Source: Candidatus Martarchaeota archaeon (GTDB lineage: Archaea > Micrarchaeota > Micrarchaeia > Micrarchaeales > Micrarchaeaceae). Taken from it: DNA of 64,000 bases. The translations under genes and the position numbers were made by a program. The notes beneath the pieces were generated by a model. It was given only the letters and a program-made list of their open reading frames with translations. It was not told the origin of the DNA and searched no databases. Below, piece after piece: positions 46,547 to 52,744 of this stretch (within the stretch, counting starts at the first letter, position 1; every line of letters starts with the position of its first letter). Location: contig JAMCYB010000011.1 in assembly GCA_023474385.1 (NCBI GenBank), positions 1-64,000 on the forward strand, written 5' to 3'.

Positions 46547-46554
46547 TTTAAATA
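46547..46554 (+). promoter_or_regulatory. TATA box of the SUF operon
   Basis: TTTAAATA lies 43 bases upstream of the sufB TTG. A start site 25 bases downstream would give a short leader containing the GGTG ribosome binding site at 46588-46591. The left arm of the nearby palindrome is also TATA-like, so the true box needs mapping. Confidence 0.5.
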
Positions 46555-46568
46555 ACATCACCGACACT

Positions 46569-46587
46569 TTTATAACCGAGTTATAAA
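46569..46587. promoter_or_regulatory. Perfect 8-3-8 palindrome at the SUF promoter, candidate operator
   Basis: TTTATAAC-CGA-GTTATAAA has two exactly complementary 8-base arms around a three-base spacer. It lies where transcription of sufB should begin and ends 9 bases before the start codon. A dimeric HTH protein is the natural reader; one is encoded inside the same operon at 49286-49615. Confidence 0.5.
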
Positions 46588-46596
46588 GGTGCTCTA

Positions 46597-48015
46597 TTGA
46601 CTGCTCAAAAAGAGGAATTCGTCGGGTCCAATGATGAAGAGTATCTTGAAAGGTACGGCTTCAGCGACAAGATAGAATACAAATACAAGACTGCAAAGGG
46701 GTTATCCGAGGACATAGTGAGGGAGATATCCAGGATAAAGGAGGAGCCCGAGTGGATGCTTGAGAAAAGGCTCACTGCGTATAAAGTGTTCGAGCAGAAG
46801 CCAACTCCTTCATGGGGTGCAGACCTCAGCAAGATAGACTTCAATGACATATTCTACTACATGCGCCCCACAGACAAGAAGGGCAGTACATGGGACTCTG
46901 TTCCAGAGGACATAAAGCGCACTTTTGACAAGCTGGGCATACCTGAAGCCGAAAAGAAGTTCTTTGCCGGTGCGGAGGCGCAGTACGATTCAGAAGTTGT
47001 GTATCACAACATAAGAGAGGACCTCCAGAAGCAGGGGGTCATATTCACAGATACAGACACTGCGGTAAAATCATATCCGGAACTGATGAAGAAATACTTC
47101 GGCACAGTAATACCGCCGTCAGATAACAAATTCGCGGCTCTGAACACGGCAGTGTGGTCAGGCGGGTCGTTCATTTACATACCAAAGGGGATAAAGGTAA
47201 CAATCCCGCTCCAGGCGTATTTCAGGATAAATTCGGAGAAGGCGGGTCAGTTTGAGCGCACCCTCATAATAGCGGACGAAGGTTCGGAAGTCACTTACAT
47301 AGAGGGCTGCACCGCCCCAATATACATGAGCTCGTCCTTGCACTCAGCTGTGGTGGAGCTCGTAGCACACAAAGACGCACACATACGCTACGTAACCATA
47401 CAGAACTGGTCCAAGAACGTTTACAATCTTGTAACCCAGAGGGCTTTCGCGTACGAGAATGCCTACGTCGAATGGATAGATGGCAACATAGGCAGCAAGA
47501 TAAACATGAAATATCCAAGCGTCTACCTGAAAGGAAGAGGTGCAAGGGGAGAGGTGCTTTCGATAGCAGTCGCAGGCGAGCATCAGGTGCAGGACTCGGG
47601 AGGCAAGATATTGCATCTGGCTCCAGACACAACATCAAAGATAATATCGAAGAGTGTATCAAAGGGCTCCGGAGTTGCATCCTACCGCGGTCTGATATAC
47701 GTCGGAAAGGACGCATCAAACACAAAATCCACTGTGCGCTGTGACGCGCTTCTCATGGACGATAATGCGAAGACCAACACATACCCGTACATGGAGGTGT
47801 ACCGGGACGACGCTACGATAACGCACGAGGCCACAGTGGGCAAGATAGGGGACGAGGAACTGTTCTACCTCATGTCCAGGGGCATAAGCGAGGAGGATGC
47901 GCTAACGATGATAGTCCTCGGCTTCATAGAGCCCCTCACAAAAGCGCTTCCAATGGAGTACTCGCTGGAGCTTAAACGCTTGATAAAGCTTGACACGTCA
48001 AATTCTGTCGCATAG
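46597..48015 (+). CDS. sufB: Fe-S assembly protein SufB
   Basis: The 472-residue protein contains the SufB core with FIYIPKGIKVTIPLQAYFRI, VTYIEGCTAPIYMSSSLHSA, SYRGLIYVGKDASNTKSTVR and the conserved Cys in VRCDALLMDD, then SRGISEEDALTMIVLGF. In the SufBCD complex it builds the nascent cluster. The start is TTG at 46597, as no usable ATG exists nearby, with GGTG correctly spaced upstream. It is the first gene of a six-gene operon. Confidence 0.95.
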   Translation: MTAQKEEFVGSNDEEYLERYGFSDKIEYKYKTAKGLSEDIVREISRIKEEPEWMLEKRLTAYKVFEQKPTPSWGADLSKIDFNDIFYYMRPTDKKGSTWDSVPEDIKRTFDKLGIPEAEKKFFAGAEAQYDSEVVYHNIREDLQKQGVIFTDTDTAVKSYPELMKKYFGTVIPPSDNKFAALNTAVWSGGSFIYIPKGIKVTIPLQAYFRINSEKAGQFERTLIIADEGSEVTYIEGCTAPIYMSSSLHSAVVELVAHKDAHIRYVTIQNWSKNVYNLVTQRAFAYENAYVEWIDGNIGSKINMKYPSVYLKGRGARGEVLSIAVAGEHQVQDSGGKILHLAPDTTSKIISKSVSKGSGVASYRGLIYVGKDASNTKSTVRCDALLMDDNAKTNTYPYMEVYRDDATITHEATVGKIGDEELFYLMSRGISEEDALTMIVLGFIEPLTKALPMEYSLELKRLIKLDTSNSVA

Positions 48016-48023
48016 GCGTTAAA

Positions 48024-49283
48024 ATGAGCGTATACGAAACGATGGTAAATGAGTCGAAGGAACTGTACAGGTCGCTGCCAGAGGAGAGCAACGAGCTCTT
48101 CAAGAGGCGGTTTGTACCTATAGGGCTTCCTCAATCGATTGCAGCCAACACGGCTTCAGAAGTGAGCGCAGATCTCGGCAAGCTGCCTCTTAAGTTCGAC
48201 GCAGTGATATCCGGTAATGGCTGCAGGTCAATGTCAAAATCAATACGCATTGCAGAAGCCGGCTCTAAGGAATACATGGATGCAATAAGTTCCAGGGTAT
48301 ACGACCCAAGAGCAGACAAGTACTCGTCGTTCATAAACGCTTCGTCATCAAGCGCCATCATGGTAGACATATCTAATGCTTCGACAAGGAGACTGAACCT
48401 TTTCTTCTCCACAAATTCCGACATATGCACGCAGGTTTTCATAAAAGCTGCGGACAATTCCGAATGTGAAATCACAGAATGGCATTCCTCCTCTGACCAC
48501 CCGGGCTCAGTAAACGGCGTTATAAATGAGATCGTAGCAAGCCCATATTCAAGAATTGCAGTAAATATCGTACACAATGAACCCTCTGCGGCAAAAGTTC
48601 TTAACGTTTCGAAGGCTGTTGCCATGGACAACGCCCAGGTTACAGTAAACTACGTCTATCTTGGGGGGGCATCTACCAAATCAAGGAATTACCTCCTTGC
48701 ATCCGGGTATTCCTCTAGCATCATTGCGAACGAGTTCGCACTCGCTCAATCGGAGCAGAAGTATGACATCAACACATCAATAATAAATGAGGCGGAGTCC
48801 AGCACGGCAAGGCTTACCTCTAAGGCAGTAGTGTCAGACAATGCGGTGTGCTTCCTAAAAGGCTTTTCAAAGATAAACCATGGTGCGAAGGATTCACGTT
48901 CATTCGTTGAAGAACGCGGACTAATAATAGAAAAAAGCGCAAAGCTCGAGTCCATACCGTCAATGTCAATAGACGAGAGCAGGGTAAAGGCATCCCACTC
49001 GTCAGCTATGGCGCCTCTGGACCCGGATACGATCTTCTACCTAAATTCGCGCGGCATCGATTTCAAGACTGCACGCATGCTTATAATAAGCGGATTCAGC
49101 ATATCGCAGCTTGCGAAGATAAGCGACGACATGCTAAAAGTGGCTCTATCTTCGATAGTGTCCTCAAGGTCTGCAGGCACCGAGGGGATAGGCAAGACTC
49201 CGAACATCGTGAGCCGCGACATGTGGATCCCATCGGCAAGCCATACAACCATACAAAAGCACAAGGATCTTGAGCAGGTGTGA
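48024..49283 (+). CDS. sufD: Fe-S assembly protein SufD
   Basis: This 419-residue SufB/D family protein has the C-terminal motif ASHSSAMAPLDPDTIFYLNS with the conserved His, then RGIDFKTARMLIISGF. The N-terminal two thirds are diverged, as usual for SufD. It pairs with SufB on top of SufC. Its stop overlaps the start of the HTH gene. Confidence 0.9.
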   Translation: MSVYETMVNESKELYRSLPEESNELFKRRFVPIGLPQSIAANTASEVSADLGKLPLKFDAVISGNGCRSMSKSIRIAEAGSKEYMDAISSRVYDPRADKYSSFINASSSSAIMVDISNASTRRLNLFFSTNSDICTQVFIKAADNSECEITEWHSSSDHPGSVNGVINEIVASPYSRIAVNIVHNEPSAAKVLNVSKAVAMDNAQVTVNYVYLGGASTKSRNYLLASGYSSSIIANEFALAQSEQKYDINTSIINEAESSTARLTSKAVVSDNAVCFLKGFSKINHGAKDSRSFVEERGLIIEKSAKLESIPSMSIDESRVKASHSSAMAPLDPDTIFYLNSRGIDFKTARMLIISGFSISQLAKISDDMLKVALSSIVSSRSAGTEGIGKTPNIVSRDMWIPSASHTTIQKHKDLEQV

Positions 49284-49285
49284 AA

Positions 49286-49615
49286 ATGCAGAGAAAGCTA
49301 ACTTCGTACGAGAATGTGATGGCTAATTTTCTGCCTGCATTCAGATTTCGGGCGGCTGGAATAATGGCAAAAGAATACAGGATCAACCAGCAGCTCTCGG
49401 CAAATCTGCTCGGGGTGACGCAGGCTTCAATAAATAAATATCTCAATGGCAGGGTTTCAGACAAGGTAAAACGGATTGGGCTACACATAGATGCGGATTC
49501 CGTAAGGGCTTTCATCGAGGATGCGGAATCTGGCAAGACCCGCGATGCCAAGCGCGAGATCTGCAGGATGTGCCAAAGCTATAGAAGCTTCGACTGCTCC
49601 CTAATAATTAAATGA
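49286..49615 (+). CDS. HTH regulator with C-terminal Cys cluster, inside the SUF operon
   Basis: This 109-residue protein has an HTH (INQQLSANLLGVTQASINKY, about residues 36-55) preceded by YENVMANFLPAFRFRAAGIM, which looks like the archaeal COG2522 predicted regulators. The C-terminus reads REICRMCQSYRSFDCSLIIK, giving C-x2-C-x8-C. Three cysteines are enough to hold an Fe-S cluster with an outside fourth ligand. Placed between sufD and sufC, it is a strong candidate for a feedback sensor of cluster status, like IscR or SufR in bacteria, which it does not resemble in sequence. A GTG at 49280 is the alternative start. Confidence 0.75.
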   Translation: MQRKLTSYENVMANFLPAFRFRAAGIMAKEYRINQQLSANLLGVTQASINKYLNGRVSDKVKRIGLHIDADSVRAFIEDAESGKTRDAKREICRMCQSYRSFDCSLIIK

Positions 49616-49629
49616 TGCTGTGTGATAAA

Positions 49630-50370
49630 ATGATTCTGGAGATAAAAGACCTATCGGTGGAAATTGCTGGCAAGGAAGTGATACAGAACCTCAATCTTAC
49701 AATAAGGACCGGAGAAAAGCACGTGCTTATGGGTCCGAATGGCTCGGGGAAGACCACTCTTGCAAAAGCCATATTCGGCCATCCTTCTATAAAAATAACA
49801 TCTGGCGACATACTGGTAGATGGGAAGAGCATAAAGGCACTGACCCCTGACAAGCGCGCTGCAGCAGGGCTTTTCCTAGGTTTCCAGAATCCAGTCGAGA
49901 TAGACGGTGTTGGGTTTGTGAGCTTTCTGCGCGCGGCAAAAGATGCTCTTTCGCCTTCCGAATCAAATACGCGAGAGCTTATGCAGGCAATAAAATCATC
50001 GACAGAGAAGCTTAAAGTCGGAGACAGCCTTATAGGAAGATCGCTCAATCAGGGCTTCTCTGGGGGAGAAAAGAAAAAAGCCGAAGTCCTCCAGATGGCT
50101 GTCCTCAAACCTAAAATAGCAATCCTTGACGAACCTGATTCAGGCCTTGACGTCGACGCGGTAAACATAGTCTCGTCCAACATAAACGATCTTGCCAGGG
50201 AAAACGCGATGGGCCTCCTCATAATAACGCACTATAGCAGGGTTCTATCATACATCGATGTGGACTACGTGCACGTAATATCAAAAGGCAAGATAGTGTT
50301 CGAGGGCGGCAAGGAAGTAATAAAGCAGATAGAGGATGGCGGCTATGAAAAGCTGCTAGAAGGTGCATAA
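49630..50370 (+). CDS. sufC: Fe-S assembly ATPase SufC
   Basis: A 246-residue ABC ATPase with VLMGPNGSGKTTLAKAIFGH (Walker A), a Q-loop FLGFQNPVEIDGV, signature GFSGGEKKKAEVLQM and Walker B IAILDEPDSGLDVDAV. It drives the SufBCD scaffold. ATG 49630 has GTGAT five bases upstream; ATG 49612 overlaps the HTH stop and is an alternative. Confidence 0.95.
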   Translation: MILEIKDLSVEIAGKEVIQNLNLTIRTGEKHVLMGPNGSGKTTLAKAIFGHPSIKITSGDILVDGKSIKALTPDKRAAAGLFLGFQNPVEIDGVGFVSFLRAAKDALSPSESNTRELMQAIKSSTEKLKVGDSLIGRSLNQGFSGGEKKKAEVLQMAVLKPKIAILDEPDSGLDVDAVNIVSSNINDLARENAMGLLIITHYSRVLSYIDVDYVHVISKGKIVFEGGKEVIKQIEDGGYEKLLEGA

Positions 50371-50371
50371 T

Positions 50372-51622
50372 ATGTCCGTCGAAGAGCTGAACCCATCAGA
50401 GATAAAGAAGGATTTTCCAATATTTGGCAATGCCGTAAATGGGAAGCGGCTCGTCTATCTGGATAGCGCGGCTACGTCACAGAAGCCCAAGCAGGTAGTT
50501 GATGCCATAGTAAACTACTACTACAGCTTCAATGCGAACATACACCGCGGCATATACAAGATATCCGAGCAGGCTACCGAGGAATACGAGCGTTCAAAGG
50601 AAAAAGTTGCAAGGTTCGTGAACGCAGAGAACGGGAAAAACATAATATACGTGCGCAATACCACGGAGGCACTCAATACTGTAGCGTTAACATTCGGCGA
50701 GCACAACATTGCGAAGGGCGACCACATACTGATATCGGATATGGAGCATCACAGCAACATAGTGCCATGGCAGCTTCTTGCAAAGCGCAAATCTGCCATA
50801 CTGGATTTCGTCCCTCTAAAGGACAATGCCTTCATTGACATCCCTTCCTACGAAAAGCTGCTCGAGAACAACCCTAAGATCGTCTCGCTCACGCATGTTT
50901 CGAATGTGCTTGGCACCATAAATGAAATAAAGAAGCTCACTTCCATGGCTAAGAAGGCCGGCTCAACAGTTGTAGTAGACGGTGCGCAGTCTGTCCCGCA
51001 TATGCCAGTGGACATATCCGACATGGGATGCGATTTTTTTGCTTTTTCATCGCACAAGATGCTTGGGCCTTCCGGCGTAGGCGTATTATACGGCAAAAAA
51101 GAGCTGCTTGAAACTACAGAACCGCTTTTCGGCGGAGGCGACATGATAAGTTCTGTAAGGAGGTCAGGATCTGAGTGGAACGAGATACCCTGGAAGTTCG
51201 AGGCTGGCACACCCAACATAGAAGGAGCAATCGGCTTGGGTGCAGCTATAAACTATCTTGAAGGAATAGGGATGCAAAAGATAAGAAATCATGAGAAATC
51301 CCTTACAGGATACGCAATGGAAGCAATTTCAAGAATTCCAGGAGTTGAAACTTACGGCCCTGCTCCGGGAATGGAGTCGGAGCGCGGCGGAGTGATATCC
51401 TTCGGCCTTAATGGCGTGCACCCGCATGACGTATCACAGATATTCGACAGCGAGGGCATAGCAATAAGAGCAGGTCACCACTGTGCCATGCCTCTTGTAA
51501 CAGAGGTCCTGCGCAAGGGCGCAGTATCGCGCATGAGCTTTTACATATACAATGACGAGAACGACGTAGACGCCGCAATAGCAGCAATAAAAAAGGTAAA
51601 GAGCATATTCCACATAAGCTGA
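50372..51622 (+). CDS. sufS: Cysteine desulfurase SufS
   Basis: This 416-residue class V PLP enzyme has YLDSAATSQKPKQVVDAI, the PLP Lys in FFAFSSHKMLGPSGVGVLYG and the catalytic Cys in IRAGHHCAMPLV. It takes sulfur from cysteine and hands it to SufU. ATG 50372 follows AAGGTG; the sufC stop is two bases upstream. Confidence 0.95.
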   Translation: MSVEELNPSEIKKDFPIFGNAVNGKRLVYLDSAATSQKPKQVVDAIVNYYYSFNANIHRGIYKISEQATEEYERSKEKVARFVNAENGKNIIYVRNTTEALNTVALTFGEHNIAKGDHILISDMEHHSNIVPWQLLAKRKSAILDFVPLKDNAFIDIPSYEKLLENNPKIVSLTHVSNVLGTINEIKKLTSMAKKAGSTVVVDGAQSVPHMPVDISDMGCDFFAFSSHKMLGPSGVGVLYGKKELLETTEPLFGGGDMISSVRRSGSEWNEIPWKFEAGTPNIEGAIGLGAAINYLEGIGMQKIRNHEKSLTGYAMEAISRIPGVETYGPAPGMESERGGVISFGLNGVHPHDVSQIFDSEGIAIRAGHHCAMPLVTEVLRKGAVSRMSFYIYNDENDVDAAIAAIKKVKSIFHIS

Positions 51623-51631
51623 GTGTGTCAA

Positions 51632-52036
51632 ATGAGCGAAATAGACGACCTCTACATGGAGGACATAATATCAAATTACGAACATCCGCATAACCGCGGC
51701 AGCATAAGCAACGCATCCGCTGAATTCCACGGACATAATCCCGTATGCGGAGACGACATACGAATCTATGTAACGATAAAGGATGGCAGGGTGGAGGACG
51801 CCAAGTTCGACGGTGACGGCTGCTCCATAAGCATCGCTTCTGCAAGCATGCTCACCGATTACATAAAAGGAAAGACGCTTGACGAGATAGAGCGCATGGA
51901 TGTCGATACCATAAGGAAGCTGCTAAACATAGATCCTGGCCCTGTGCGCCTGAAATGCGCCACGCTCTCCTTAAAAACATTGAAGGGAGCGGTATTCCTT
52001 TTTGAGCACAAGCCGAACGACACGGACAATCTATAG
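51632..52036 (+). CDS. sufU: SufU/IscU-type sulfur-transfer scaffold
   Basis: This 134-residue U-type protein keeps three conserved cysteines: PVCGDDIRIYV, DGDGCSISIASASMLTDYI and RLKCATLSLKTLKGA. The Gly-Asp between the first pair and spacing of the third agree with SufU. It closes the operon and its stop overlaps the convergent alaX end by six bases. Confidence 0.92.
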   Translation: MSEIDDLYMEDIISNYEHPHNRGSISNASAEFHGHNPVCGDDIRIYVTIKDGRVEDAKFDGDGCSISIASASMLTDYIKGKTLDEIERMDVDTIRKLLNIDPGPVRLKCATLSLKTLKGAVFLFEHKPNDTDNL

Positions 52037-52744
52037 CCCTATGACAAATACGACCCGTTTGTTGTGCGCTCCCCTGCTCTCATAGGATTCTAGCCTTATT
52101 CTGCCTATCTCAGAGGTATTGGAGACATGCGTACCGCCGTCAAGCTGCATGTCGAATCCCTCTATGTCTATCACCCTTATAGTTTCAAGCTTTTTCAACA
52201 GCTCGTTCCCGGGAAGAGTCCTGGAAAGGTTCGGTATTGCCGCCGCCTCGTCTACAGAAAGAAACTTCTGCGAAACTGCGTGCTTCTCATCTATGACAGC
52301 CTGCGCCTTTGCGGCAATCTCATCAGCTTTTTGCTTATCCATCATAGGTATGTCGAAATCCATTCTTGCCCTGTCCTGATATATCTGGCCTCCAGTTACC
52401 TTCCCGCCATAATATTTCTCCACTACCCCGTCTACTATGTGCAGAAGGGTGTGGTATTTCATATGTGCGTATCTCCTATTCCAATCTATCTCTCCCTTTA
52501 CGGCGAGTCCAGGAGCCAACGAAACTTCTTTTTCAGGCAGATGTATTATTCTGTCGCCATCCTTCCTTACATCAATTATGTTTATCCTAGAACCATCTAC
52601 GGTCAATGTTCCGACATCGCATGGCTGTCCTCCTCCTGTTGGATAAAATGCAGTCCTGTCCAGCTCTATCCCGCCATCTGCTGCGACTATAGTTGCATCG
52701 AACGCCTTCATATACTGGTCTTTCCAGAAAAGCTTTTCAACCAT
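52031..52744 (-). CDS. alaX: Alanyl-tRNA editing protein AlaX
   Basis: This 237-residue trans-editing protein has RTAFYPTGGGQPCDVGTL, the zinc motif HMKYHTLLHIVDGVV (HxxxH) and a second metal site MQLDGGTHVSN, ending with GRIRLESYESRGAHNKRV. It hydrolyses Ser- or Gly-tRNA-Ala. The second site has Asp where many AlaRS editing domains have Cys (CGGTH); its His is kept. Its length is that of the medium AlaX class. Confidence 0.9.
   Translation of the reverse strand: MVEKLFWKDQYMKAFDATIVAADGGIELDRTAFYPTGGGQPCDVGTLTVDGSRINIIDVRKDGDRIIHLPEKEVSLAPGLAVKGEIDWNRRYAHMKYHTLLHIVDGVVEKYYGGKVTGGQIYQDRARMDFDIPMMDKQKADEIAAKAQAVIDEKHAVSQKFLSVDEAAAIPNLSRTLPGNELLKKLETIRVIDIEGFDMQLDGGTHVSNTSEIGRIRLESYESRGAHNKRVVFVIGL

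Follow-up and report, generated by a model that had tools for sequence, protein, structure and literature searches.

A small helix-turn-helix protein with a three-cysteine tail is a probable iron-sulfur-responsive repressor of the SUF operon in a micrarchaeal genome

The SUF operon found in a 64,000-nucleotide stretch of DNA from a Candidatus Martarchaeota archaeon (the whole stretch being called the window hereafter) contains a gene for a small helix-turn-helix (HTH) protein, which is probably a sensor turning iron-sulfur (Fe-S) assembly up or down. On the evidence given below, we consider it probable that this protein is a dimeric repressor which acts on SUF and on some metal uptake and which most likely responds to an Fe-S cluster bound by its three cysteines. 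Its predicted binding to a palindrome in the SUF promoter is strongly inferred from the distribution of both elements among related genomes. C93, C96 and C104 may hold the cluster and, by analogy with known regulators, the holo form may be the repressing one.

All genes of the operon are on the + strand and are separated by short gaps, in the order sufB-sufD-HTH-sufC-sufS-sufU, with the HTH gene sitting between sufD, which ends at 49283, and sufC, which starts at 49630. The preliminary description of this DNA had reported a SUF operon with an embedded small HTH gene, and this was borne out by the open reading frames together with the NCBIfam family matches (Table 1). For the sufD product, SufD was the best NCBIfam family despite a score below the cut-off (152 vs 222 bits). 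The gene which follows sufU (window 52031-52744, - strand) resembles, by eye, an AlaX-type alanyl-tRNA editing protein.

Table 1. Positions in the window of the SUF genes, of the HTH protein features and of the promoter elements.
Feature	Position	Strand	Basis
TATA-box-like TTTAAATA of the sufB promoter	46547..46554	+	read directly, conserved spacing in relatives
Candidate palindromic operator TTTATAAC-CGA-GTTATAAA	46569..46587	.	sequence, conservation in relatives
sufB, leading the operon, TTG start	46597..48015	+	TIGR01980 719 bits, over cut-off
sufD	48024..49283	+	SUFBD_core 150 bits; TIGR01981 152 bits, below cut-off 222
HTH regulator, 109 aa, proposed Fe-S-responsive SUF operon repressor	49286..49615	+	ORF, ATG 49286 to stop
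Helix-turn-helix, residues 35-53 (helices 35-42, 46-53)	49388..49444	+	AlphaFold2 model, alignments A1/A2
Three Cys codons	C93 49562-49564, C96 49571-49573, C104 49595-49597	+	sequence, alignments A1 and A2
sufC	49630..50370	+	TIGR01978 292 bits, over cut-off
sufS, cysteine desulfurase	50372..51622	+	TIGR01979 577 bits, over cut-off
sufU	51632..52036	+	TIGR01994 112.9 bits, over cut-off

The C-terminal end of the 109-residue HTH protein reads CRMCQSYRSFDCSLIIK and includes C93, C96 and C104, which form a C-x2-C-x7-C tail (CRMCQSYRSFDC). A three-cysteine tail had been described before and stands, and its spacing had to be corrected from C-x2-C-x8-C. The AlphaFold2 model of the protein (mean pLDDT 89.1) placed C93 and C96 in the last long helix (85-99) and C104 immediately ahead of a short terminal helix, in a low-confidence end of which the last nine residues have a mean pLDDT of 59. 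Homologues were compared in two alignments, one chosen from motif-bearing loci (A1, 51 rows, 24-88% identity to the window protein) and one found by database search with no motif selection (A2, 92 rows, 22-90% identity). The invariant columns were P17, Q46, K51, C93, C96 and C104 in A1, and Q46, A47, C93, C96 and C104 in A2. Because A1 was built from motif-bearing loci, its cysteine invariance is partly a matter of choice, and A2 is free of that effect. Within the HTH, residues Q46, A47, S50, K51 and Y52 were invariant or nearly so in the two alignments, and no His, Asp or Glu was found among the columns conserved at ≥90% in either. Pfam models matched the HTH protein below their gathering thresholds (HTH_3 with 16.4 of 23 bits, HTH_31 with 18.2 of 27, and Cro likewise), and PF01381 is precomputed on some of its relatives. 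As to the number of cysteines, 45 of 49 copies from operons led by sufB have three, and a fourth one, two residues upstream, is present in 23 of 33 copies from operons led by the HTH gene.

To describe the distribution of this gene, the genome nearest to the window (G001, with 100% of the window's sampled words in common) was taken as reference, and 99 relatives of G001 formed the comparison set. A first search gave a protein match in 88 of the 99, and an orthologue was located inside a SUF operon in 83. The other 16 comprise nine genomes with SUF genes and no HTH gene, three with a cut SUF contig (G042, G046, G059) and four with no SufB match at E <= 1e-60 (G034, G055, G094, G097). The co-occurrence of the three cysteines with SUF linkage, which the preliminary description had set as a check, was clearly observed: the full motif was present in 82 of the 83 SUF-linked orthologues vs none of 31 non-SUF paralogues among the fetched loci, which cover the best matches of the first search plus its second matches except the weaker ones. 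In the first 78 SUF-linked copies the third cysteine follows at x7 in 76, at x6 in one and at x8 in one. The orthologue of G028 had been missed by the first search and was recovered by profile, and for this reason the absence of the gene from the nine HTH-less genomes was re-checked by profile.

SUF-linked homologues devoid of the cysteines had been named beforehand as evidence against the proposal, and a partial case was found in one genus (g15), in which the CxxC is kept and the third cysteine is missing. The copy L040 (genome G017) has the CxxC only, as do L179 and L177 of the named set, and a third g15 genome (L029, G039) has all three cysteines. L040 and L179 lack the third cysteine but remain linked to SUF and have an operator that departs by one mismatch, which indicates either that the three cysteines are not always required or that this copy is degenerate. 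In a tree of the HTH proteins, the SUF-linked, non-SUF and other-order groups were separated with one change each. The association between cysteines and SUF linkage thus belongs to a single clade and was established once and then kept, which is ancient conservation and not 83 independent events; its use as repeated independent evidence was accordingly ruled out. The named homologue and locus records belong nearly all to Candidatus Micrarchaeota or Micrarchaeaceae, with some Marsarchaeota and one 'bacterium'. The latter record (L205) displays a sufC-sufB-sufS-sufU-HTH order of the Micrarchaeota kind and is probably mislabelled.

The candidate operator has a core TTATAAC-N3-GTTATAA at positions 46570-46586 and is the sole exact TTATAACNNNGTTATAA in the window, where a scan allowing up to 3 mismatches gave 3 sites, about the level of shuffled sequence. 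In sufB-first operons, from which loci with <100 nt upstream were left out, TTATAACNNNGTTATAA was recovered within 150 nt upstream in 52 of 52 promoters, with 0 (34), 1 (14), 2 (3) or 3 (1) mismatches. Some relatives entered twice, as a G genome and again as a named record; dropping identical upstream regions left 45 distinct promoters, with 0/1/2/3 mismatches in 30/11/3/1 (41 of 45 at <=1); dinucleotide shuffles of these promoters produced no site with fewer than 2 mismatches (0/1800). In 39 distinct operons led by the HTH gene, TATAACNNNGTTATA was found ahead of that gene, exact in 38 and with one mismatch in 1, and block shuffles gave 1/1560 with one mismatch and 0 exact. For four of these 39 (L163, L164, L202, L209) the exact site is upstream of another start, outside the interval first scanned. 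The spacing to the TATA box was measured on 41 of the 45 distinct sufB promoters, and in 32 of the 41 TTTAAATA (<=1 mismatch) starts 22.6 ± 4.6 nt before the palindrome; the start codon follows the site at a variable distance (25.4 ± 17.5 nt). The palindrome is found just downstream of the sufB TATA box in operons led by sufB, and ahead of the HTH gene in operons that this gene leads. As it covers the expected transcription start, its position suits a repressor.

The nine genomes with SUF genes and no HTH gene (G011, G018, G019, G025, G040, G041, G056, G057, G093) were analyzed in the same way, the contig of G018 ending just past sufD. The palindrome was found upstream of sufB in none of these nine operons, up to 4 mismatches, and a search of the nine genomes with the family profile gave no full match, with nothing in seven and a short weak partial match in two. 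Anywhere in the fetched locus, TATAACNNNGTTATA at <=1 mismatch was present in 90 of 93 HTH-bearing rows vs 0 of 9 HTH-less ones, and the HTH-less genomes had no exact TATAACNNNGTTATA site apart from G018, whose single one is inside an open reading frame. Taken together, these results agree with the prediction that the palindrome at 46569-46587 is the cognate operator, since it is conserved upstream of the SUF operons of relatives and tracks the presence of the HTH gene. On the best SufB tree (102 rows) the HTH-less state required five changes, of which well-supported branches force two; with only two of the five losses on such branches, a sign test on the losses was not significant. Three HTH-less genomes, G011, G040 and G056, were seen to carry a second, divergent SufB-like gene elsewhere, with ~50% identity (L112 6116-7504, L117 6930-8288, L130 2-736).

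At the scale of whole genomes, TATAACNNNGTTATA was recovered at 122 sites in 99 genomes vs 8 for a reversed control. By coordinates, 79 of the 122 sites are at SUF-operon promoters, before sufB or the HTH gene, one per genome in 79 genomes, and many of these genomes, including the one nearest to the window, have no other exact site. All 43 non-SUF sites were examined: 17 lie before ZIP-family genes, 1 before an NRAMP gene, 2 before radical-SAM genes and 2 before methyltransferase genes; roughly half of the 43 lack an evident iron or Fe-S target, and several fall inside open reading frames. The 17 ZIP-family sites are all found ahead of genes for a single membrane-protein family, at a distance of 10-91 nt (L303-L322, L351-L368). 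One member exceeded the Pfam Zip threshold (36.1 vs 35.1 bits) and two others gave no match at E <= 0.01; among six aligned members, a Zip match at E <= 10 was obtained for three. The six have in common [HQ][ND]-x-[ST]EG-like patterns, which we take to be a ZIP signature. The NRAMP gene behind one site scored 155 bits, and the radical-SAM genes behind two sites are that of L314 (82 bits) and its homologue in L365. The L314/L365 product, 643-647 residues long, combines an HMPTM-type zinc ribbon with a tail rich in glycine and cysteine. Within the genus of the window (G001-G003), a scan allowing two mismatches gave 3, 5 and 5 sites vs 1, 4 and 6 in the control, and only the SUF site stands out. 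Since this genus has the SUF site only, the ZIP part of the predicted regulon rests on other genera.

The position of the HTH gene differs between lineages, with at least four arrangements: sufB-sufD-HTH-sufC, HTH-sufB, HTH-sufC-sufB, and HTH before a nifS-type gene. The window's family has sufB-sufD-HTH-sufC-sufS-sufU and its sister family HTH-sufB-sufD-sufC-sufS. Matches to the A1 profile (E <= 1e-6) were found in 184 of the 295 genomes sampled from the phylum, 36 of them outside the window's order. Loci were obtained for 30 of these 36 genomes, and SUF/ISC-type genes were present within 1.5 kb in 22 of the 30, on the other strand in the case of L255; in the remaining eight (L242, at a contig end, L246, L247, L249, L250, L252, L253 and L267) no SUF/ISC-type gene was found within that distance. 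The neighbours were either sufC-sufB, with sufS-sufU further on when longer DNA was taken, or a cysteine desulfurase gene with a sufU-like one after it. For eight desulfurases (six of these out-of-order neighbours and those of genomes G226 and G118), NifS was the best model for all and was over its cut-off in five. The out-of-order tails match C-x2-C-x(4-12)-C in 24 cases out of 30; L254, L256, L258 and L259 keep the CxxC with a more distant third cysteine, and L265 and L270 have a CxxH...CxxC tail. In several deep forms the tail is CxxC-x9-CxxH-...-CxxC or similar. No SUF gene lies within several kb of the HTH gene in G226 and G118, where a nifS gene is found ~3.6 kb off, preceded by a palindrome site at 63 nt (G226) and 44 nt (G118); G226 has another site upstream of the HTH gene. 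In G118, a ThiI-like gene (by eye; L375 5217-5891) with a SUF-type palindrome at its start directly precedes the HTH gene. A different palindrome, TTAACAATTGTTAA-like and perhaps a diverged operator, was noticed in the HTH promoters of L263, L264 and L266, which belong to deep lineages of the nifS type.

The HTH protein probably has its closest functional counterparts in SufR and IscR: we infer, by analogy, that it works like these regulators, being a member of neither. That SufR and IscR are of other families had been stated in the preliminary description, and no family model ties the HTH protein to either. IscR has three cysteine ligands, and the common trait proposed here with IscR and its Rrf2 family is Fe-S-responsive feedback on cluster assembly; Pfam gave no Rrf2 match to the window protein at E <= 1. 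The gene of SufR is linked to suf genes, as the HTH gene is in 83 of the 99 relatives. From what PMC8593673 describes in its relevant part, SufR of cyanobacteria and actinobacteria is, like the repressor proposed here, a dedicated, autoregulated suf repressor with a palindromic operator and with Fe-S cysteines behind an N-terminal DNA-binding part. The same part of that source assigns SufR to the DeoR family, with a C-x12-C-x13-C-x14-C cluster site and a CAAC-N6-GTTG operator, whereas the HTH protein has C93, C96 and C104 only, and the conserved site here is TTATAAC-N3-GTTATAA, with CAAC-N6-GTTG absent, by reading, from the window's sufB promoter. NCBIfam, which includes TIGR02702 (SufR_cyano), gave no SufR match to the window protein at E <= 0.1. 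In none of the 31 relatives searched did a SufR_cyano or Rrf2 match exceed its cut-off, so these genomes offer no known Fe-S regulator of either kind as a competitor for the role.

By sequence, the nearest known kin are haloarchaeal HTH-ThiN proteins, which were reached through a deep Micrarchaeota relative. This relative aligned, across 98% of its length, with four records from haloarchaeal plasmids (30-33% identity, E 4e-9 to 5e-7), two of the four being named as thiamine-phosphate synthase family. The archaeal HTH-ThiN proteins we take to be ThiR, and the COG2522-type label proposed for the HTH protein in the preliminary description may hold. The HTH region and the cysteine tail can be aligned, the comparison being made with the deep relative found with A1 and not with the window protein itself. 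In contrast to the window protein, whose 109 residues comprise the HTH and the tail with no ThiN domain, the haloarchaeal proteins are ~310 residues long and have a further C-terminal part. The two records examined also differ in having CxxH...CxxC without the first CxxC, and in their surroundings, with thiaminase genes beside one, a phosphonate transporter beside the other, and SUF genes at neither.

In the mechanism that we propose, a dimer of the HTH protein would bind TTATAAC-N3-GTTATAA downstream of the sufB TATA box, and the C-x2-C-x7-C tail would carry an Fe-S cluster with three Cys ligands. When clusters are plentiful, the holo form would block the transcription start of the SUF operon, its own gene included, and in some lineages also that of a metal importer of the ZIP or NRAMP family. 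Under a shortage of clusters or iron, the cluster would be lost and the DNA freed, and assembly and metal uptake would rise, by analogy with SufR and IscR.

A sensor comparable to Fur or Zur, with Fe(II) or Zn(II) bound directly by the cysteines and with SUF and the ZIP/NRAMP genes controlled by metal level, is an unlikely reading, although it would fit the 17 of 43 non-SUF sites at ZIP-family genes and the one at NRAMP, the zinc-like CxxH...CxxC of kin from other orders and haloarchaea, and the four cysteines of many HTH-first copies. Against the Fe-S reading, ZIP proteins can carry zinc, and only some members of the site-linked family pass a Zip model. What argues against a Fur- or Zur-like sensor is the exact site at the SUF operon in 79 genomes, many of which, the nearest included, lack any other site, together with the composition of the tail, three cysteines in 45 of 49 sufB-first copies with no His, Asp or Glu column at ≥90%. 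Three cysteines with no conserved His, Asp or Glu are unusual for zinc. In the window's family, three cysteines that lack another well-conserved ligand point to a cluster with an open site rather than to zinc, and the fourth cysteine of 23 of 33 HTH-first copies makes zinc possible there. Small cysteine clusters often bind structural zinc; we nevertheless hold it very unlikely that the tail is a structural zinc knuckle with no sensing role, on a repressor which answers a partner protein or is constitutive. Most sufB-first copies have three cysteines only, which argues against the knuckle, if weakly, and the last nine residues of the model are of low confidence (mean pLDDT 59).

CxxC, which the tail contains, is a common redox motif, and bacterial SUF is often stress-induced. 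A thiol or redox switch, in which a disulfide or persulfide formed under oxidants or sulfur stress frees SUF, would have an archaeal precedent in the thiol-based regulator of the TrmB family reported in PMC9426492. Two cysteines suffice for a simple disulfide, whereas nearly all SUF-linked copies (82 of 83) retain the third, and such a switch seems to us improbable. Finally, we consider it highly improbable that the HTH protein acts elsewhere and that the palindrome either serves as a general promoter element or belongs to another regulator. The palindrome is indeed AT-rich and TATA-like, and its binding by the HTH protein is a prediction, but there is about one site per genome, mostly at SUF, and the site precedes the HTH gene wherever this gene leads and is gone from 9 of 9 HTH-less operons. 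We retain the Fe-S-dependent repressor as the preferred reading.

In the literature searched, the coverage of which was incomplete and is no proof of absence, no archaeal SUF regulator was found. PMC11218638, in the part concerned, relates SufR to Fe-S assembly in Gram-positive bacteria and not in Archaea, and in PMC8351635, which surveys the iron and sulfur pathways of methanogens and alkanotrophs, the relevant passages name no assembly regulator. The regulation of archaeal Fe-S cluster assembly thus seems largely open. The present analysis supplies a protein, a candidate DNA site for it and a predicted regulon, the nine genomes lacking the gene are natural knock-outs for comparison, and the system allows a direct test of whether Fe-S assembly feedback arose again in archaea. 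It also ties the control of Fe-S assembly to metal import in uncultured archaea. A broader proposal, to which we give even chances, is that of a phylum-wide archaeal regulator of Fe-S homeostasis forming its own family, in which the same HTH and the same or a diverged palindrome would run SUF or nifS-nifU-like genes plus ZIP/NRAMP iron import, and which would have evolved independently of SufR and IscR from the stock that also yielded the archaeal thiamine regulator.

A separate feature of these operons concerns SufB. The window's own SufB is free of any large insertion, and in ~20 relatives (G007, G010, G014, G019, G030, G041 and others) SufB has an in-frame insertion of several hundred residues near residue 240, examples of such split SufB being L114 6004-8481, L119 6139-8736 and L128 5805-8360. 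These insertions are probably inteins.
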